64,000 bases of DNA from Mycobacterium sp. MS1601 (GTDB lineage: Bacteria > Actinomycetota > Actinomycetes > Mycobacteriales > Mycobacteriaceae): assembly GCF_001984215.1 (NCBI RefSeq), contig NZ_CP019420.1, forward strand, positions 1,550,001-1,614,000, given 5' to 3'. A program made the position numbers and the translations under genes. Below are positions 29,907 through 39,236 of the stretch, one piece after another. Numbering within the stretch: position 1 is the stretch's first letter; each line of letters opens with the position of its first letter. Below the pieces are notes generated by a model. It saw only the letters and a program-made list of their open reading frames with translations, did not search any database and was not told the origin of the DNA.

Positions 29907-31118
<1,212 letters not shown>

Positions 31119-31191
31119 ACGTTGTCTCCAGGTGCTGTTCAGGGTTGATGCAGGGAGGTTTGTCCTCTATTGCGCCAGCCTAGCAGCCTCG

Positions 31192-31209
31192 CCCAACCGC
31201 TTGGTTGGG
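31192..31209. promoter_or_regulatory. Palindrome upstream of fadA (candidate operator)
   Basis: CCCAACC-GCTT-GGTTGGG, 7-base perfect arms, located 74 bases before the fadA start and between fadA and the end of the cobalt transporter operon. It could be a binding site for an acyl-CoA-responsive TetR regulator, or part of a terminator of the upstream operon; there is no T-run. Confidence 0.5.
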
Positions 31210-31230
31210 AGCCTGTTCTCGCCCTGGTGG

Positions 31231-32019
31231 TCAGGTGGGCACCACCTGCCTGCGAGCACCTTCCACCACTCGCGACACGAGTGCCCCGAACACCAGCGCG
31301 ATCGCCACCCACATCACCAGCTGGGTGCCGAAGGAGTACAGCCGGAATTCGTAGAGGTCGTCGGCCGGGAAGCCGCCGAACACGATCACCCCGGCGTCGT
31401 CGACGATGGGTCCCGGCGTCTCGTCGATGGTCGGCAGCACCAACATCAGCACCGCGACCGCCCCCACGTAGGCGCCTCCGGCCGACAGCGCGGCATTCCA
31501 GGCGCCCAGTTTGGTGGTCAGCCGGCGACCCAGGTGCACGGCCGCCACCAGAATCACCACCGACAGCACCACCATCAGCACATACAACAGCGTGCGCTGT
31601 TGAAGGGTGCCGTCCAGACTGACCGCAGGCGGGTTCGGTGGGTACTTCAGCGCGGGCACCACCCACACCGACAGCAACATCCCAGCGGCCAGCACACCCG
31701 ACAGTGCCCGCGCCGAGATGTCACCGATATGTCCGTAGGTCACGCAGAAGACGACGGCCAACAGCGCGCCCATCGCCGCCGAGAACGCCAGGACACCGAA
31801 GCCCATCCCGATGTTGGCCTGGACGGCGCGGGTGAACAGTTCGACGCCCTCGCCGTGGGAGTGGCCGCCGTGGCTGGCCTCGTGGGCCGCGCTGACGCCC
31901 TCTTCGTATCCGATGGCCCGCTCGATCACCGGTTCCAGGAAAATCCGCGCGAACACGAATGCCGATACCGCGCCTGCGACGCCGGCCAACACGCCGCGCC
32001 CGATGATGTGCTTTTCCAT
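31231..32019 (-). CDS. cbtA: Cobalt transporter subunit CbtA
   Basis: 262 residues from ATG 32019. Membrane protein with several helices and a metal-binding His cluster in the first outer loop (HEASHGGHSHGEG). The family is a predicted cobalt permease that pairs with CbtB. Here it is the last gene of the nitrile hydratase operon, eleven bases after cbtB, so it probably supplies Co to the enzyme rather than to cobalamin. Confidence 0.9.
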   Translation of the reverse strand: MEKHIIGRGVLAGVAGAVSAFVFARIFLEPVIERAIGYEEGVSAAHEASHGGHSHGEGVELFTRAVQANIGMGFGVLAFSAAMGALLAVVFCVTYGHIGDISARALSGVLAAGMLLSVWVVPALKYPPNPPAVSLDGTLQQRTLLYVLMVVLSVVILVAAVHLGRRLTTKLGAWNAALSAGGAYVGAVAVLMLVLPTIDETPGPIVDDAGVIVFGGFPADDLYEFRLYSFGTQLVMWVAIALVFGALVSRVVEGARRQVVPT

Positions 32020-32029
32020 GGTCGGCGAC

Positions 32030-32236
32030 TCAGTGGCAGGGGAAGCCGAGGAGGTGACGGGCATCGTGGGTGAACTCGTGCACGTAGGTGTTGTTGCCGA
32101 ACACCGAGGTTGCGCCCTGGTCCATCCCGACGAAGTAGAGCGCCAGCAGCGCGAAGAAGGCGGTGAGGGACAGCCAGGCCACTGCCTTGGCTGCGGAAAG
32201 ATCCAGCGCTGTCGAGCGCTTCTGTGTGGTGTCCAT
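32030..32236 (-). CDS. cbtB: Cobalt transporter subunit CbtB
   Basis: 68-residue protein with one membrane helix (residues about 19-38) and the CbtB C-terminal metal motif VHEFTHDARHLLGFPCH (His/Cys ligands). It sits between the DUF1097 gene and cbtA on the minus strand. No cobalamin riboswitch is visible in the 22-base gap before it, so expression probably follows the upstream operon. Confidence 0.92.
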   Translation of the reverse strand: MDTTQKRSTALDLSAAKAVAWLSLTAFFALLALYFVGMDQGATSVFGNNTYVHEFTHDARHLLGFPCH

Positions 32237-32258
32237 GATGTGCCTTTCTCAGATGTGA

Positions 32259-32768
32259 TTACGTGGGGACGACGGCGCGGTCAGGCCGGCTCAGTGCGCC
32301 GGCCAGTTGCTCGGCGACATAGCCGAAAGCGGTGCCCAGCACCATGGCCATCAGCGCGATGGCGGCAGGGTGCGAGATGGACGGTGCGTCGGCGATCGAG
32401 CGGCCGGTCACGCCGATGATGCCGACAGTCGAGGCGAAGCCGAAAAAGGAAGCGGGAGTGAAGGAGAACAGGTCGAACCGACCGATGGCCACCAACACGC
32501 CCGCTCCGAAGACTATGCACAGGGCAGTCGCCCACGGGCCGCCGCCGAGTGCATGCGCCACCAACAGGGTGGCGGTGGCGCTGACGATGCCCACCACTGC
32601 CATGGGCAGTGATCGGCGCATCCCGGCGATGCCGCCGCCTGCGGCGACAAACGATGCCCAGGCGATGAACAAGGCCCAGATGGGCACAGTCACCAGATAA
32701 ACGGTGACCAGAAAGGAAGCAGCCCCCAGGACACCGATCACCAGGGTCGCCGCCAGACGTTCGTTCAT
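32259..32768 (-). CDS. DUF1097 family membrane protein in the nitrile hydratase operon
   Basis: 169 residues with five or six hydrophobic helices (LAATLVIGVLGAASFLVTVYL first). It matches the DUF1097/YcdZ-type inner-membrane family. ATG 32768 overlaps the stop of the accessory gene by 4 bases. By position it could transport the nitrile, amide, acid or ammonium, or assist cobalt uptake (inference); the family has no established function. Confidence 0.75.
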   Translation of the reverse strand: MNERLAATLVIGVLGAASFLVTVYLVTVPIWALFIAWASFVAAGGGIAGMRRSLPMAVVGIVSATATLLVAHALGGGPWATALCIVFGAGVLVAIGRFDLFSFTPASFFGFASTVGIIGVTGRSIADAPSISHPAAIALMAMVLGTAFGYVAEQLAGALSRPDRAVVPT

Positions 32769-33247
32769 CGGTGAGTCCTCGAGTTGGCAACCGGCTGTCC
32801 TGCGTACACCGCGATGGGTTTGATCCGGTCCCGGATCTCGGCCAGCGGGGTCATCGGATGGTCATGATCGTGATCATGTGCCGGAGTCGGGCAATCACGT
32901 TGCACCCGATGATGATTGGTCAGTTCGATGGGCTGCCCGTGTGGGGTACCCAGGTAGGCAAGGCGCCACTGCTCGTGCCGCTCGTCCACCATCTCGTCCG
33001 AGACCCCGGCGTGCCGGTCGATCATCCGGTTCACGGTGGTCAGCCACTGCCGATAGTAGGACTCGGTGACCGTCTCGTGCTCGCGTCGCGGCGATCCGTT
33101 GATCTCGGCGGAGAACTCGTCCACCCACTCGGTCCAGGTGAACATCTTCTGCCGGGTGAGCGCCACGACCAGCGCGAAAGCCTCTACCTGCCAAGGCTCT
33201 TCGAAGGCAACTTCCGGATCTTCGCCCGCGGACAGCAGCGCGTTCAC
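32765..33247 (-). CDS. Nitrile hydratase accessory/activator protein (NhlE/P14K type) with His-rich tail
   Basis: 160 residues from GTG 33247, whose GTG overlaps the preceding stop; the frame is open further upstream inside the beta gene. FEEPWQVEAFALVVALTRQKMFTWTEWVDEFSAEI is the typical opening of nitrile hydratase activators, which resemble the beta-subunit N-terminus and deliver cobalt or swap subunits. Residues about 125-135 are AHDHDHDHP, a His/Asp run that could bind Co2+. It overlaps the DUF1097 gene by 4 bases. Confidence 0.87.
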   Translation of the reverse strand: MNALLSAGEDPEVAFEEPWQVEAFALVVALTRQKMFTWTEWVDEFSAEINGSPRREHETVTESYYRQWLTTVNRMIDRHAGVSDEMVDERHEQWRLAYLGTPHGQPIELTNHHRVQRDCPTPAHDHDHDHPMTPLAEIRDRIKPIAVYAGQPVANSRTHR

Positions 33248-33603
33248 AAGGCCCGTGCCGGATCGAGGTAGCTGTCCCACAGATCGATGTAGATCCACGA
33301 GTTGGGGGTGCCGCGGTCGCCGAACAACTCAGCGCTGCTGAACTTGATGCTGTAGAGGTGCTCGGGGTTCTCCCCGCGGCCATGGGCCATGGTGTCGGGG
33401 TAGACGAAGAACCCGTGATGACGGTCGACGACGCCGACGTGGCATTTGGCGTAACCCGGCAACCGGGTGTGACCGATCGGATTGTGGTTGCGCACCACAA
33501 CGGTGTCGCCTTCGGCGAAGCGTGGCTCGACCGTGACAGGCCGAGTGAAGTCACCGGGAGTGCGGATTGCGCCGAGAACCTCGGCGGGAGCGAGCTTCTG
33601 CAT
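33244..33603 (-). CDS. Nitrile hydratase beta subunit, C-terminal half (SH3-like), separate gene
   Basis: 119 residues matching the C-terminal barrel of nitrile hydratase beta: PRFAEGDTVVVRN, GHTRLPGYAKCHVGVVDRHHG, and FSSAELFGDRGTPNSWIYIDLWDSYL. ATG 33603 starts one base after the stop of the N-terminal-half gene. Three-subunit nitrile hydratase relatives such as thiocyanate hydrolase and toyocamycin nitrile hydratase are split in the same place (established). Its end overlaps the activator start by 4 bases. Confidence 0.87.
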   Translation of the reverse strand: MQKLAPAEVLGAIRTPGDFTRPVTVEPRFAEGDTVVVRNHNPIGHTRLPGYAKCHVGVVDRHHGFFVYPDTMAHGRGENPEHLYSIKFSSAELFGDRGTPNSWIYIDLWDSYLDPARAL

Positions 33604-33604
33604 G

Positions 33605-33931
33605 TCAGGCCTGCTTCTCTTTCTCTTCCGGGGCCGAGAGTTCCGCGATGCGGGCGTCCAGTTCTTCCTTGGTGAACAGGCCGTTGCCGTAGCCCAGGTT
33701 CTCGGCCGCGCGCAGCCAGTGCACGTAGTACGGGGTGGTGAGATACTCTGCCGGATCCATGATCTCGATGGAGTGCCGGAACTCGTCGAGTGGGCACAGG
33801 CCGGCGGCGAAGTACAGGCCGATCACGGAGAAGACGTCCTTCTCCCAGTCACCGTGGAACACCACCTCGTCCTCCTCGGTCTTGACGGCCCCCATCCCGT
33901 CTTTGCCGCCAACGTCGTGAATTCCGTTCAT
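33605..33931 (-). CDS. Nitrile hydratase beta subunit, N-terminal half, separate gene
   Basis: 108 residues matching the helical beta-subunit N-terminus: MNGIHDVGGKDGMGAV, then FSVIGLYFAAGLCPLDEFRHSIEIMDPAEYLTTPYYVHWL. It ends with a charged tail (ELSAPEEKEKQA) and its own TGA, and the C-terminal half begins immediately afterwards with its own ATG, so the split is genuine and not a frameshift in one long gene. Its ATG overlaps the alpha-subunit stop by 4 bases. Confidence 0.88.
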   Translation of the reverse strand: MNGIHDVGGKDGMGAVKTEEDEVVFHGDWEKDVFSVIGLYFAAGLCPLDEFRHSIEIMDPAEYLTTPYYVHWLRAAENLGYGNGLFTKEELDARIAELSAPEEKEKQA

Positions 33932-34554
33932 GCCGCCGCCCCCTGGGGTGTCGATGCCAGTTTTGTACCGATCATGGCGTCGCGGCTCACCAGGTCGGCG
34001 AGTTCCTCGACGGTCAATCCCTCTGTGCCGGAGGGGCGTTGCGGAATGACGATATAGCGGATCTCAGCAGTGCTGTCCCACACCCTGATCTCGATGTCGT
34101 CGGCAAGCGTGGTCCCGAACTCTGCGAGCACCGCCCGCGGTTCGAAGACCACCCGCGCCCGGTACTGCGGCGCCTTGTACCAGGCCGGAGGCAGACCCAG
34201 CACGGCCCACGGGTAGCAGGAGCACAGGGTGCACACCACGACGTTGTGCACGTCGTCGGTGTTCTCGACGAAGATGACGTGTGCCCCTTCGAAACCCGTC
34301 ATGCCCAGCTCGGCCAAGGTGGCGGTGCCGTCGGCCAGCAGCTTGGCTTTGAAATCCGGTTCCGTCCAAGCCCTCGCGATCACCGCGGCACCGTCTTTGG
34401 GGCCGATCCGATTCTCGTAGATGTCGACCACTTCGTTGAACGAGTCGGGGTCGATGATGCCCTTTTCCACCAGCAACGACTGGACCGCCTTGATCCGCAG
34501 TTGGGCGTACGGCGGCGGCGCGGTGTAGCCGTCGCTGCGTGTGATTTCTTCCAT
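33928..34554 (-). CDS. Cobalt-type nitrile hydratase alpha subunit
   Basis: 208-residue metal-binding subunit that hydrates nitriles to amides. The metal motif is V107-C-T-L-C-S-C113; Thr at the third position marks the cobalt class (iron enzymes have Ser). C111 and C113 would become the sulfinic and sulfenic acids. The following YPWAVLGLPPAWYKAPQYR is family typical. It is followed by two half-beta genes, so the active enzyme is probably an alpha/beta-N/beta-C complex. A thiocyanate-hydrolase-like activity cannot be excluded. Confidence 0.92.
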   Translation of the reverse strand: MEEITRSDGYTAPPPYAQLRIKAVQSLLVEKGIIDPDSFNEVVDIYENRIGPKDGAAVIARAWTEPDFKAKLLADGTATLAELGMTGFEGAHVIFVENTDDVHNVVVCTLCSCYPWAVLGLPPAWYKAPQYRARVVFEPRAVLAEFGTTLADDIEIRVWDSTAEIRYIVIPQRPSGTEGLTVEELADLVSRDAMIGTKLASTPQGAAA

Positions 34555-34581
34555 GGGTGTGTGACCCCTTTCTGGTTGGGT

Positions 34582-36351
34582 TTATCCGGGCACGACGGAC
34601 AGCGCCGGCGCGGGTACGGCGTCGGCGGTCGACAAGCTGCCGTAGTGGTGCGGCAGTCGCATACTCACCAGGTCCTTGCGGCGTACCACGTTGGCCGGGT
34701 ACGGTCCGGGACCGTCGCTGGTGTTGATGGGTGTGGCCACCACCTCGGCGGTGGAACCGGCCACCCGCTCCCGACGTGGGAACTCGAAGGTATCCGGGCC
34801 GAATACCCCACTGCGGCCACCGAATTCGGGTGGGTTGGCATAAGCCAGGTACACGTTGTTCTCCCCGGCCCGCACCCGCATGTGATGCCAGTGCAGCGGG
34901 CTGGCGGCGCGTGGGATCGGGTAGTTCAAGGGCACCCTGGTCCCGGGGTGGCCGTGATGCAGCTTCGCCGCGATGCGCGCGGGTACGGCGATCACGTCGC
35001 AGCCGCGCAGCGCCGCCACCCGGCCGGACTCCGGACGCAGCACGTCGTCACCGTGCAACAGCGCCACCCGACCCACCCGGATATCGGAGTGCGTCCAGGA
35101 ATCGCCTGCCGTGAAGTACATCTCGTCGACCTCGTTGAGGTGCACCTTGCGGTGCACGGCCACGATTCCCTCGGGTCCGAGCAGCACCACACTGTTGTAG
35201 GGCGATGTCCCGGGTTCACCGCGTTCGGCCACACCCACCACCAGGTAGCTGCCACACCCGGCGGCGGCATCCAGCAGCGGCAGCAGAAGCCCTTCGCCGT
35301 CAACACTTTCCGCGTAGTCGGCAGCGGCGCTGGGTGGACCCGAGACGCTGAGTTCGGGGAACACCACCAGATCCGCTCCTGCACCGACCGCCTCGAGAAA
35401 GGCGTCTCTGATGGCCGCGACGTTGGCCGCCGGGTCGGTGGTGGGGTCCTGTTGGACCACGGCCAGCACCGACTCGCGGCCGGGCGGAATCGGGTCGTTG
35501 CCGTAGAGGGTGAAGAAGTCCCGCGGATTCCACAGGAAGGTGTTGGTCTGCAGCTCCCGGTACAGCTCGGGGCGACGACCCGCCAGTCCGGAGTCCCGAC
35601 CCGCCTTCGCGGCACGCACGGCAGCCAAATCGATTTCGGCGCTCACGATCTCGTCGCCGCTGTCACATACGGCCAGGATCTCGGAATCCGGTGCGATGAT
35701 GCAGGATCCGCCGCTGAACTGGACGCCGCGCTCCAAACCCCAACGGTTGCTTTCCATCAGGTAGCAGGAGTTCTCGTAGGCGCGGCTGATCCAGTACGGC
35801 GCGGGTGTACGTTCGGCGAGCCAGTTGCTGATGTGGCAGATCACGTCCGCACCGTCGAGGGCGACCACCCGCGCGGTTTCCACGAAGTGGATGTCCATGC
35901 AGATCAGCACAGCGATGCGGCCCAGCGCGGTGTCGAACACCTGGTGCCCGAGGTTGCCCGGCGCAGCCCACTTGGGTTCAGCGATGTAGCCGTGGGTCTT
36001 TCGGTGCGTGCCGATGATGCCCCGGGGGCCGATGAGCACCGCGGAGTTGTACAGCAGCCCGGTGTCGAGATCACGTTCCGGCATCCCGATCACCAGGTGG
36101 CAGTCCAGGCGCGCGGCCAGTTCGGCGAACACATCGGTGGCCGGTCCGGGAACCGGCTCGGCCATGGTCTCGGCTTCGGTGATGTCGAAGAAGCAGTACC
36201 CGGAGATACCCATTTCCGGGGTGGTGATCAGCTTGGCGCCGCCGGCTGCGGCTTGCGTCACGAGTTCGGCCAGTCGGGCGATGTTGCCCTGCTTGTCGAA
36301 CAGCACGGGTTCGAACTGGACCGCCGAAGCCAGGTAGGTCGTTTCCGACAC
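34582..36351 (-). CDS. Two-domain nitrilase-superfamily (carbon-nitrogen hydrolase) protein, second active site degenerate
   Basis: 589 residues from GTG 36351 with a GAAGGGA ribosome site. Domain 1 (about 1-260) has the complete Glu-Lys-Cys triad: E46 (TTPEMGISG), K118 (GTHRKTHGY) and C151 (VLICMDIHF). Domain 2 (about 290-560) keeps E333 (FPELSVSG) and K402 (VHRKVHLNEVDE), but the Cys position is H433 (ALLHGDD), so it is probably inactive or structural. First gene of the nitrile hydratase operon, 27 bases before alpha. It could hydrolyse the nitrile or the amide product; which is not decidable here. Confidence 0.87.
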   Translation of the reverse strand: MSETTYLASAVQFEPVLFDKQGNIARLAELVTQAAAGGAKLITTPEMGISGYCFFDITEAETMAEPVPGPATDVFAELAARLDCHLVIGMPERDLDTGLLYNSAVLIGPRGIIGTHRKTHGYIAEPKWAAPGNLGHQVFDTALGRIAVLICMDIHFVETARVVALDGADVICHISNWLAERTPAPYWISRAYENSCYLMESNRWGLERGVQFSGGSCIIAPDSEILAVCDSGDEIVSAEIDLAAVRAAKAGRDSGLAGRRPELYRELQTNTFLWNPRDFFTLYGNDPIPPGRESVLAVVQQDPTTDPAANVAAIRDAFLEAVGAGADLVVFPELSVSGPPSAAADYAESVDGEGLLLPLLDAAAGCGSYLVVGVAERGEPGTSPYNSVVLLGPEGIVAVHRKVHLNEVDEMYFTAGDSWTHSDIRVGRVALLHGDDVLRPESGRVAALRGCDVIAVPARIAAKLHHGHPGTRVPLNYPIPRAASPLHWHHMRVRAGENNVYLAYANPPEFGGRSGVFGPDTFEFPRRERVAGSTAEVVATPINTSDGPGPYPANVVRRKDLVSMRLPHHYGSLSTADAVPAPALSVVPG

Positions 36352-36464: not shown

Positions 36465-36965
36465 TTATGTTTCCTTTGTGTTACCTGTAGCGGCTTGAGC
36501 TGCTCTGTTGCTGATCCAGAAAACATTTTCTTCAGAAACTGATTCGGCCGATCCGAGGACATCCAGCGCATTGGCGACGGCCGTCTGCAGCGTGGAAAGG
36601 GCATCGGAGACCTCGGTGTCGAGGTGGGTGTCGGCGCGGTCGAGGACGTCGGCGCAAGCACGGTGCACGGCGGCCCCGCGGCTGGTCAGGTGGATGTTGA
36701 TGCGGCGCCGGTCCGCCGGATCGATGCGACGGTAGAGCAGGTTGTTGGTGACCATCCGGTCCACCAGCTTCGAGAGCACCGACGGCGCCAGGCCGGCGTC
36801 CTTGCCGATCTTCGACATCACCGCAGGCCCGCCGGAGGCCACGTGGTCCAGGACACGCCACTCGTCGAGCGAACACCCCTGGACGGCAAGCAGAGCTTCC
36901 ACGCGGCCTCGTAGCATGCGGACCAGGGCATCGGCCTGTAGTGCCACCTGCGATGCCGTTCCCAT
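36465..36965 (-). CDS. MarR-family regulator of the nitrile hydratase region (NhhD-like)
   Basis: 166 residues with a winged helix: DEWRVLDHVASGGPAVMSKIGKDAGLAPSVLSKLVDRMVTNNLLYRRIDPADRRRINIHL. It lies between the nitrilase operon, same strand, and a divergent AmiC-like sensor. In Rhodococcus rhodochrous J1 a MarR-type protein (NhhD) and an AmiC-type protein (NhhC) together control the high-molecular-mass nitrile hydratase (established), so the same role is likely here. Confidence 0.85.
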   Translation of the reverse strand: MGTASQVALQADALVRMLRGRVEALLAVQGCSLDEWRVLDHVASGGPAVMSKIGKDAGLAPSVLSKLVDRMVTNNLLYRRIDPADRRRINIHLTSRGAAVHRACADVLDRADTHLDTEVSDALSTLQTAVANALDVLGSAESVSEENVFWISNRAAQAATGNTKET

Positions 36966-37089: not shown

Positions 37090-38172
37090 ATGCTCACATC
37101 ACACCACGACGACGTCTTCAGCGTCGCGGTGGTGAACCCGCTGCAAGGTCCACTCGGCATCATCGGGCCGCCTGCACAATTGTGCACACAGCTGGCGGCC
37201 GAGGAGATCAATGCCGCAGGCGGCATCCTGGGTCGCGAGCTCCGGTTGGTGACGGTCGACGGGGGCCTGCCGCCCGCGGTCATCGCAGCCCGGCTCGATG
37301 CGTTGGTGTCCACCCGCCAAGTGCATTCGGTGATCGGCACACACACCTCCGCGGTGCGCAGGGCGGTGGCGCCGAGGTTGGCGGGGCGGGTGCCCTACAT
37401 CTACACGTCGTTGTACGAAGGCGGCGAACGTGATCCCGGGGTGTTCGTCACCGGTGAGACTCCGGACACCCAGTTGCTTCCGGCGCTGACGGTGTTGGAA
37501 CAGGAGTTCCGGGTCCAGGACTGGTTTGTGGTGGGCAACGACTACATCTGGCCGCGGTCCACCGCCCGCCAGATCGGCGCCCACCTCGCGGCAGACAATC
37601 GAGCATTGCGCGGAGCTGCGTATGTTCCGTTGGGGTGCAACGATTTTGCCGCCGTACTGGACCGTGTGGAGCGCTCGGATGCCACGGGAGTGGTGGTACT
37701 GCTGGTGGGGCAGGACGCGGTGGACTTCCACCGCCAGTTCGCCGATCGCGGCCTACACCACCAGATGGTGCGCCTGAGTCCGTTGATGGACGAGAACATG
37801 CTGCTGGCGGCGGGCGCCGCGGCCGCAGAACAGCTCTACGTGAGTGCGGCGTACTTCTCGGCGCTGCCCACTCAGGGCAGCCTGGACTTCACCGCACGGT
37901 ATTCACAACGCTTCGGGCCCGACGCCCCGATGGTCGGGACCATGGCCGAATCCTGTTACGAAGGTCTGCACCTGCTGGCTGCGCTTACCGAATCCGCTGG
38001 CAGCGCTGCCGTCTCAGAGCTGTGTCTGGTGGCCGACGACGTCGAGTTCGAAGGCCCCCGTGGTGCGCAGCGCCTCACTGCGCACCACACCTCGCAGCAG
38101 AACTATCTGGCCAAAGCGGCCGGACTCGACTTCGATGTGCTGGCCTCACTGAGTTCGGCCAAAGTCGGGTAG
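37090..38172 (+). CDS. Cytoplasmic amide/ligand sensor of the periplasmic-binding-protein fold (AmiC/NhhC-like)
   Basis: 360 residues of the leucine/amide-binding (type I periplasmic binding) family: FSVAVVNPLQGPLGIIG, LAAEEINAAGGILGREL, and GNDYIWPRSTARQIGAHL. No signal peptide or lipobox is present, so it should be cytoplasmic like Pseudomonas AmiC and Rhodococcus NhhC rather than a transporter component. It is divergent from the MarR gene and next to the nitrile hydratase operon, and is likely to sense amides or nitriles. Its last 70 bases overlap the converging alkene reductase gene. Confidence 0.83.
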   Translation: MLTSHHDDVFSVAVVNPLQGPLGIIGPPAQLCTQLAAEEINAAGGILGRELRLVTVDGGLPPAVIAARLDALVSTRQVHSVIGTHTSAVRRAVAPRLAGRVPYIYTSLYEGGERDPGVFVTGETPDTQLLPALTVLEQEFRVQDWFVVGNDYIWPRSTARQIGAHLAADNRALRGAAYVPLGCNDFAAVLDRVERSDATGVVVLLVGQDAVDFHRQFADRGLHHQMVRLSPLMDENMLLAAGAAAAEQLYVSAAYFSALPTQGSLDFTARYSQRFGPDAPMVGTMAESCYEGLHLLAALTESAGSAAVSELCLVADDVEFEGPRGAQRLTAHHTSQQNYLAKAAGLDFDVLASLSSAKVG

Positions 38173-39236
38173 TCGGTGTAGCCCACCGGACCCGCTGCGT
38201 AGAACGTGGCGACGTCCGGCTCGTTCAGGTCGGCGCCCAACTCCAACCGGGTGATCAGGTCAGGGTTGGCCAGGAACGCCCGGCCCACGGCGGCAGCGCT
38301 GATGACGCCCCACTCGGCCAGCTCTTCGAGTTGGCAGAAGTTGGTGTCACGGTCACGGCCGGTGTTGAGCACCAGCGGTCCGTCCCAGAGCGACCTCAGC
38401 GTGGCGAACACCGGGTCCGACGGATCGATCAGGATGTGCAGGTAGGCCAGCCCCAGCGCGTCGATACGCCGCAACAGGGCCTCGTAGGCACTCACCTTGT
38501 CGTTCTCGCGCATGTCGCCTGCGGTGTTTCCTGGCGAGATCCGCAGGCCCACCCGGCCCGCGCCGATCTCGTCGGCCACGGCTTCCACCACCTCGGCGGT
38601 GAGTCGCGCCCGGTTCTCCGGCGAACCGCCGTAGACGTCGGTGCGCTGGTTCACCACGTCGGATGAGAACTCGTGGAGCAGATAGCCGTTGGCACCGTGG
38701 ATCTCCACACCGTCCATCCCCGCGTCGACGGCACGACGTGCCGCCGAGCGGAACTGTCCGACAATGGTCTCGATCTCCGCAATGGTCAGGGCCCGCGGCT
38801 CGGGCAGCGGCTGCTTGCCCGACGGGGTGTGTGTCACCATGTCAGCCGCGATGGGAGACGGCCCCACCACGTCGAATCCGCTGATCTCCGGATGCGCCAT
38901 GCGGCCGACGTGCCACAGCTGGACGAACATCTTGCCGCCTTCGGCGTGCACGGCCGAGGCGATCTCACCCCACTTCTCCTGATGCCTGTCGGTGTACAGA
39001 CCCGGGGTGTGCATGTAGGCGCCGTTGGCCTGCTCACAGATGGCGGTCGCCTCGCTGATGATCAGGCCCGCCGCGGCGCGCTGGGCGTAGTAGGTCACCG
39101 CCAGGTCCGACGGCGTGGCGTCGGCGTCGGCGCGCGAACGCGTCAGGGGTGCCATGAAGATCCGGTTCTCGGCAGAGGTGTCGCCGATCTGAATGGGCTT
39201 GCGCAGCGCCGCATCACTGCCGAGGGTGAATGTCAT
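38103..39236 (-). CDS. Old yellow enzyme-family alkene reductase (NemA/XenB type)
   Basis: 377-residue FMN TIM barrel that reduces activated C=C bonds or nitro compounds. Motifs: NRIFMAPLTRSRADADATPSD, the FMN-region SEATAICEQANGAY, substrate-binding VEIHGANGYLLHEFSSDVVNQRTDVYGGS (His and Asn of the HxxN pair), and VGRAFLANPDLITRL. ATG 39236 preferred. The extra C-terminal tail (SEASTSKSSPAALAR) lies over the end of the sensor gene. Confidence 0.92.
   Translation of the reverse strand: MTFTLGSDAALRKPIQIGDTSAENRIFMAPLTRSRADADATPSDLAVTYYAQRAAAGLIISEATAICEQANGAYMHTPGLYTDRHQEKWGEIASAVHAEGGKMFVQLWHVGRMAHPEISGFDVVGPSPIAADMVTHTPSGKQPLPEPRALTIAEIETIVGQFRSAARRAVDAGMDGVEIHGANGYLLHEFSSDVVNQRTDVYGGSPENRARLTAEVVEAVADEIGAGRVGLRISPGNTAGDMRENDKVSAYEALLRRIDALGLAYLHILIDPSDPVFATLRSLWDGPLVLNTGRDRDTNFCQLEELAEWGVISAAAVGRAFLANPDLITRLELGADLNEPDVATFYAAGPVGYTDYPTLAELSEASTSKSSPAALAR

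Follow-up and report, generated by a model that had tools for sequence, protein, structure and literature searches.

A predicted cobalt-type nitrile hydratase gene set with a two-gene beta subunit and a linked DUF1097 membrane protein gene in Mycobacterium sp. MS1601

Three-subunit nitrile hydratases (NHases) are already in print from Streptomyces canus (PMC7329996) and Microvirga flocculans (PMC11573777) and reportedly act on nitrile insecticides. The gene set compared with them here lies in a 64,000-nucleotide (nt) stretch of Mycobacterium sp. MS1601 (contig NZ_CP019420.1, positions 1,550,001–1,614,000; the whole stretch is called the window) and is predicted to encode a cobalt-type (Co-type) NHase with its beta subunit in two genes. 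The S. canus NHase is described as a cobalt enzyme whose beta subunit is likewise encoded by two genes homologous to the N- and C-terminal parts (PMC7329996, PMC13243292); its genes have the order D-E-A, with no activator gene detected, whereas here alpha leads and the activator comes after the two beta genes. The plasmid-borne M. flocculans enzyme is also described as three-subunit, but its alpha gene is said to separate the two beta genes, which adjoin in the window (PMC11573777). For the thiocyanate hydrolase of Thiobacillus thioparus, a review shows the gene order alpha, beta, gamma, activator, which resembles that of the window (PMC7193024); the difference is that the window alpha fails the cut-off of the curated thiocyanate hydrolase model.

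We consider it quite probable, judging from the encoded proteins, that the gene set would convert nitrile to amide by a Co-type NHase with a two-gene beta subunit and amide to acid and ammonia by the two-domain hydrolase nit, with cobalt supplied by CbtAB. All eight minus-strand genes of the initial annotation were found and were open, and each assignment was backed by Pfam; NCBIfam holds no model for DUF1097 or CbtA. The block reaches past the interval first read, to a MarR gene and an AmiC/UrtA-like sensor gene, which are counted as part of it because they adjoin the operon in the genus genome G167 and in Mycobacterium sp. MBM too. In window coordinates, the features were as follows.

34582..36351, minus strand: nit, two-domain nitrilase-superfamily protein of 589 amino acids (aa), predicted amidase; GTG start; PF00795 in two stretches
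33928..34554, minus strand: NHase alpha with motif VCTLCSC; TIGR01323, PF02979, Co-type PDB chains
33605..33931, minus strand: NHase beta-N, 108 aa; PF21006; 25 homologues of 103–138 aa
33244..33603, minus strand: NHase beta-C, 119 aa; PF02211
32765..33247, minus strand: activator/accessory protein with His-Asp tract HDHDHDH; TIGR03889
32259..32768, minus strand: DUF1097 membrane protein, 169 aa; PF06496, 91.4 over 24.6
32030..32236, minus strand: CbtB, predicted cobalt importer subunit; PF09489, 38.6 over 27
31231..32064 (start may be 32019), minus strand: CbtA, predicted cobalt importer subunit; PF09490, 238.5 over 30.7
36465..36965, minus strand: MarR-family regulator upstream of nit; PF12802/PF01047
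37090..38172, plus strand: divergent AmiC/UrtA-like ligand-binding protein without signal peptide; PF13458/PF13433
31119..38102, no strand: extent of the block, between thiolase (29907–31118) and flavin mononucleotide (FMN) oxidoreductase (38103–39236) genes

The alpha subunit passed the curated NHase alpha model TIGR01323 (295.4; cut-off 249.85), and its best PDB matches were chains named cobalt-containing or Co-type NHase (233–298 bits). The metal motif of these enzymes carries Thr for cobalt and Ser for iron; the VCTLCSC of alpha aligned with the same motif of the Co-NHases 4ob1 and 3qxe. Motif, curated models and PDB matches together support the proposed cobalt type. For the beta subunit, beta-N aligned to residues 1–95 of solved Co-NHase beta chains and beta-C to residues 106–219 of the beta chain 3qyh, and the best PDB matches of both halves were Co-NHases. 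Neither half reached the cut-off of the single full-length beta model TIGR03888 (104.3 and 121.3; cut-off 152.2), of whose 226 positions they covered 1–103 and 121–226. The enzyme is filed here as a putative three-subunit variant of the Co-type NHase. Its activator gene could be confirmed by TIGR03889 (72.8; cut-off 46), so that the operon has its own, and the His-Asp tract was found also in G167, MBM and Prauserella.

The division of beta into two genes is genuine. Gene order and split were the same in G167, MBM and Prauserella halophila; the junction TGACATG was identical in the window, G167 and MBM and read TGATG in Prauserella, and in all four loci beta-N and beta-C lay in different frames. 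A sequencing artefact is ruled out, since three relatives share the split and the two genes are in different frames. Glu56 of beta-N was invariant in all 24 aligned beta-N rows, while the His of GHTR in beta-C aligned to residue 147 of 3qyh (counted on the printed alignment). Beta Glu56 and His147 are named as second-shell residues of the Pseudomonas putida NHase in a source that also describes one active NHase lacking the second-shell Glu, hence this Glu is not strictly required (PMC8278588). Because Glu56 lies in beta-N and the His-147 equivalent in beta-C, the surroundings of the active site would be divided between the two halves. In the complex predicted for alpha, beta-N and beta-C, the chains would be arranged as in the alpha-beta unit of solved Co-NHases, with Glu56 given by beta-N and the His aligning to beta-147 by beta-C. 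The activator, a relative of beta-N, would load cobalt and then be swapped for the beta halves.

The split is also recurrent. Relatives of beta-N were sought among proteins of similar length, which gave the 25 listed above; the window and 23 of these relatives were aligned and led to 80 loci in genome records, a split-derived sample biased towards splits. In this sample 36 of 78 complete NHase loci were split and 42 fused, so the earlier view of a split beta as unusual for nitrile metabolism does not hold, the more so as three-subunit NHases are published. In a tree built from 40 split and 70 fused rows (110 in all), at least five changes between the two states were needed (shuffled mean 32.8), three of them forced by well-supported branches. 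The window grouped with G167, MBM and Prauserella (support 100), and this group joined split NHases of Pantoea, Erwinia and Chimaeribacter as the nearest group (Shimodaira–Hasegawa-like approximate likelihood-ratio support, SH-aLRT, 98, with a long-branch warning). Split NHases of Alpha- and Gammaproteobacteria (Rhodopseudomonas, Acidisoma, Pantoea rwandensis and others) have the window's order alpha, beta-N, beta-C, activator and differ in that none has nit or DUF1097. A Streptomyces plasmid locus with the order beta-N, beta-C, alpha (L114) branched apart from the window in this tree; S. canus itself was compared by description. The split beta is thus real and recurrent and no oddity, and the repeated changes between the two forms offer a natural experiment on the relation of beta chain and activator. 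In P. rwandensis (L068:4404–12135), the split-beta NHase and activator genes were followed by a NicO nickel/cobalt transporter gene, and a urea-type ATP-binding cassette (ABC) transporter was encoded divergently.

The compact gene set of the window is likely one operon. Overlaps of 4 bases, first said to join most neighbours, were present at three of the seven junctions (alpha/beta-N, beta-C/activator and activator/DUF1097) and not at the other four; nit and alpha were 27 nt apart, beta-N and beta-C 1 nt, and DUF1097 and CbtB 22 nt, and CbtB and CbtA either overlapped by 35 nt or lay 10 nt apart, according to the CbtA start. Its core appears to be the five genes nit, alpha, beta-N, beta-C and activator, to which CbtBA and DUF1097 seem to have been added.

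CbtAB is described as a predicted cobalt transporter (PMC2667541) and would supply cobalt in the window, where both proteins passed their Pfam cut-offs. Two points weaken this part of the proposal: CbtB scored 27.1 against NCBIfam TIGR02459, below the cut-off of 64.4, and the corresponding loci of G167, MBM and Prauserella have no CbtAB. Since these three loci lack it, CbtAB is not required for the core; the importer of the initial annotation is present as a predicted one, and the description as a dedicated part of the unit gives way to that of an optional add-on. Among the 78 loci of the genome records, a cobalt importer lay within 7 kb of the NHase in 37 (CbtA 11, NicO 10, CbiM 16), counts that are lower bounds as only 51 of the 80 loci were longer than 20 kb. 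NicO was the importer in 10 split loci, and an amidase resembling the one on Pantoea pPAT9B04 was near 18 of the 36 split loci. The plasmid NHase operon of Pantoea sp. At-9b resembles the window in having the activator followed by CbtB and CbtA and differs in its fused beta and in the amidase and aldoxime dehydratase genes upstream. A split beta and a dedicated importer are ordinary once compared.

Three NHase alpha genes were found in this genome. The second locus (L130:4848–11084, C1 ~3.339–3.345 Mb) contained fused beta, alpha, activator, DUF1097, MarR and an AmiC-like sensor, with CbtB, CbtA and an acetamidase/formamidase-family gene on a divergent arm. The third (L131:7353–10285, C1 ~2.737–2.740 Mb) contained DUF1097, fused beta, alpha, activator and a CbiM-type cobalt uptake gene. 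All three loci are equipped with CbtAB or CbiM and therefore each has its own predicted importer, of two kinds. The formamidase/acetamidase-family gene, CbtAB, DUF1097, MarR and same sensor type of the second locus, and DUF1097 with CbiM in the third, were counted in favour of the nitrile-to-acid pathway proposed above. Three features are worth following: the linkage of DUF1097, the amidase-like partner with its two domains, and the presence of three self-supplied NHase loci in one genome. Enzymes of this class produce acrylamide and nicotinamide and serve to remove nitrile pesticides, and for this reason a split-beta form with its own activator and importer would be of practical use.

The link of DUF1097 to NHase was evaluated in 40 genomes of the genus picked for NHases of three better-matching classes. 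DUF1097 was present in 33 of them with 53 copies in all, and 50 copies had an NHase alpha gene at a distance of 400–1269 bp. The linked copies were spread over three operon types and occupied two positions (after the activator in the window and the second locus, before beta in the third); the three unlinked copies were in G041, G008 and G167. Viewed in reverse, DUF1097 lay within 2 kb of 50 of the 68 alpha genes listed for these classes. None of 40 control genomes of the genus, 20 without an alpha match and 20 with the weakest class only, carried DUF1097 (Fisher p ~1e-15, uncorrected for relatedness). Three further genus genomes (G004, G011 and G101) each had DUF1097 adjoining NHase alpha. As copies in NHase-bearing relatives nearly always adjoin NHase, DUF1097 is likely to have a working role in the nitrile pathway.

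Several observations pull in the other direction and would suit a hitch-hiker without a role of its own. DUF1097 was absent at the corresponding locus in G167 and Prauserella and from 77 of the 78 genome-record loci (mostly proteobacterial), MBM being the sole carrier. Across the class (394 genomes), DUF1097 exceeded the cut-off in nine genomes outside the genus, and only one of these had an NHase, with one of its two DUF1097 copies 842 bp from alpha; the other eight, without NHase, carried distant versions (approximately 29–35% identity or without match). The link holds in the genus and mostly fails outside it, so what is NHase-linked is a subfamily and not all DUF1097, and as far as seen it is confined to in and near the genus. 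A passive hitch-hiker remains unlikely in view of the 50 closely placed copies in different operon types and positions and the empty control genomes.

As a working part, DUF1097 would be the membrane partner of the enzyme, most likely moving nitrile, amide or acid and less likely cobalt. We tentatively raise the possibility that it provides mycobacterial nitrile catabolism with its missing membrane component, as a dedicated nitrile/amide facilitator recruited to three Co-NHase operon types, each with its own importer. If this is true, each operon would by itself cover uptake, metal supply, maturation and hydration; the linkage gives a first concrete, testable role for an uncharacterised membrane family. 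Profile comparison with the AmiS/UreI amide channel revealed no similarity (hhalign probability 0.4%, 23 columns), no solved relative was found among PDB sequences (best E 0.19), and an AlphaFold model from two sequences was too poor for a fold search (mean predicted local distance difference test, pLDDT, 46.2). Five papers mentioning DUF1097 were listed in a literature search, and a joint search with 'nitrile hydratase' listed no paper containing both.

The nit protein passed PF00795 (CN_hydrolase) with two domains (262.5 over 23.2). In domain 1 the triad Glu46-Lys118-Cys151 was intact, while domain 2 had no Cys at the matching place. In an alignment of the 120 listed of 954 relatives, Lys and Cys of domain 1 were present in 120/120 and Glu in 118/120 (two gaps); in domain 2 the Cys place was Gly in 120/120, and the preceding residue was never Cys. 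The original label of nitrilase is right as to the two-domain superfamily and the Glu-Lys-Cys of domain 1, and the protein is probably better read as an amidase. It most likely acts as the amidase after the NHase, by analogy with the Pantoea and Klebsiella NHase operons, which carry amidase where nit sits; an amidase was located within 7 kb of NHase in 53 of 78 loci. Three of four plasmid contexts of nit relatives were amide/urea-type clusters (ANTAR regulator, binding protein, urea-type ABC transporter), two of these three being alike and from Rhizobium. A true nitrilase or cyanide-type enzyme beside the NHase would agree with the best-matching model of domain 1, the nitrilase equivalog NF040852, and with the PDB chains named nitrilase that head its match list, and the fourth plasmid context (Thermomicrobium), without an amide cluster, also tells against an amidase. 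This alternative is distinctly improbable, since nit reached 243.6 bits against NF040852, far below the cut-off of 500, and since its position and relatives are of the amidase and amide/urea type. In G167 nit (L129:14887–16616) matched in two frames and looks frameshifted; the alpha, beta-N, beta-C and activator matches there were continuous.

Thiocyanate, another substrate suggested initially, is made unlikely by the curated models. Thiocyanate hydrolase is also three-subunit and has a non-corrin cobalt centre, as a review states (PMC7193024), and alpha matched its gamma chain in PDB at 141–147 bits. Against the gamma-subunit model TIGR03887, alpha scored 180.2, below the cut-off of 291.45, but it passed the NHase alpha model; its matches to Co-type NHase chains were stronger, and the amide-type neighbours would suit an NHase better, so that the enzyme is very unlikely to be a thiocyanate hydrolase. 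A natural-product nitrile as substrate, with the block as part of a biosynthetic cluster, would recall the toyocamycin NHase, which is also three-subunit, but is scarcely credible beside thiolase, fadB-type and FMN oxidoreductase genes, with a nucleoside-biosynthesis domain recognised in none of the 20 flanking open reading frames (ORFs) scanned, a set that did not cover every ORF.

With the nitrile-to-acid pathway as the preferred reading, the AmiC/UrtA-like protein is a predicted amide/urea sensor; it would sense amide, and the MarR protein would control transcription. The sensor protein matched urea-binding proteins (102–114 bits) and AmiC (78 bits) in PDB. It could also be an orphan transporter component, which would speak against a sensing role. 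In the NHase clusters of Rhodococcus rhodochrous J1, NhhC/NhhD-type (AmiC-like, MarR-like) regulators lie beside the NHase, whose beta is fused, unlike that of the window. Literature searches found no paper under the J1 regulator names NhhC/NhhD and nothing on point for NHase with AmiC and MarR. A palindrome in front of nit in the window was considered as a possible conserved operator, but G167 and MBM do not share it, and the idea was dropped.

The block was likely gained horizontally, as far as gene distribution and order can indicate. Alpha was present at 89–90% identity in 2 of 197 other genus genomes sampled; protein records contained relatives in further mycobacteria outside that sample, such as Mycolicibacterium baixiangningiae (92%), and, at 72–80% identity, in Saccharopolyspora, Prauserella and an Acetobacter. 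Three of 17 relatives with a fetched thiolase locus (L154, L155 and L158) had the FMN oxidoreductase gene immediately upstream of thiolase; in the other 14, where the stretch fetched was at most 1.5 kb, it was not found. The block lies between these two genes in the window and G167; in MBM thiolase was not found within the locus. At the junction, the C-terminus of the FMN oxidoreductase has a tail common to the window and G167 and lacking in L154, L155 and L158. Horizontal gain fits because the distribution is patchy and the block stands between genes that adjoin in three relatives. The mobile metabolic module first suggested is supported as a block of likely horizontal origin, not as a self-mobile one. 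No integrase or transposase was recognised in the 20 flanking ORFs scanned, a set smaller than the full list of ORFs. The guanine plus cytosine content was unremarkable and does not mark the block as foreign. Matches to plasmid records (179) included no close copy of alpha, with 7 at 60–80% identity, 172 below and none above.

On a 3.4-kb contig of Acetobacter sp. DsW_059 (P0008, P0049), alpha and beta-N were 72–74% identical to those of the window; these are the closest named relatives outside Actinomycetota among the matches listed and hint at inter-phylum transfer. At the block junction (38103–38172), the sensor and FMN oxidoreductase genes, which lie on opposite strands, share 70 bases at their 3' ends. 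Upstream of the thiolase gene, at window positions 31118–31240, lies a palindrome-like element, CCCAACCAAnnGGTTGGG, which is kept in G167 and L155 and of which L154 and L158 have a related version; a regulator of the thiolase-fadB pair may act at this site.

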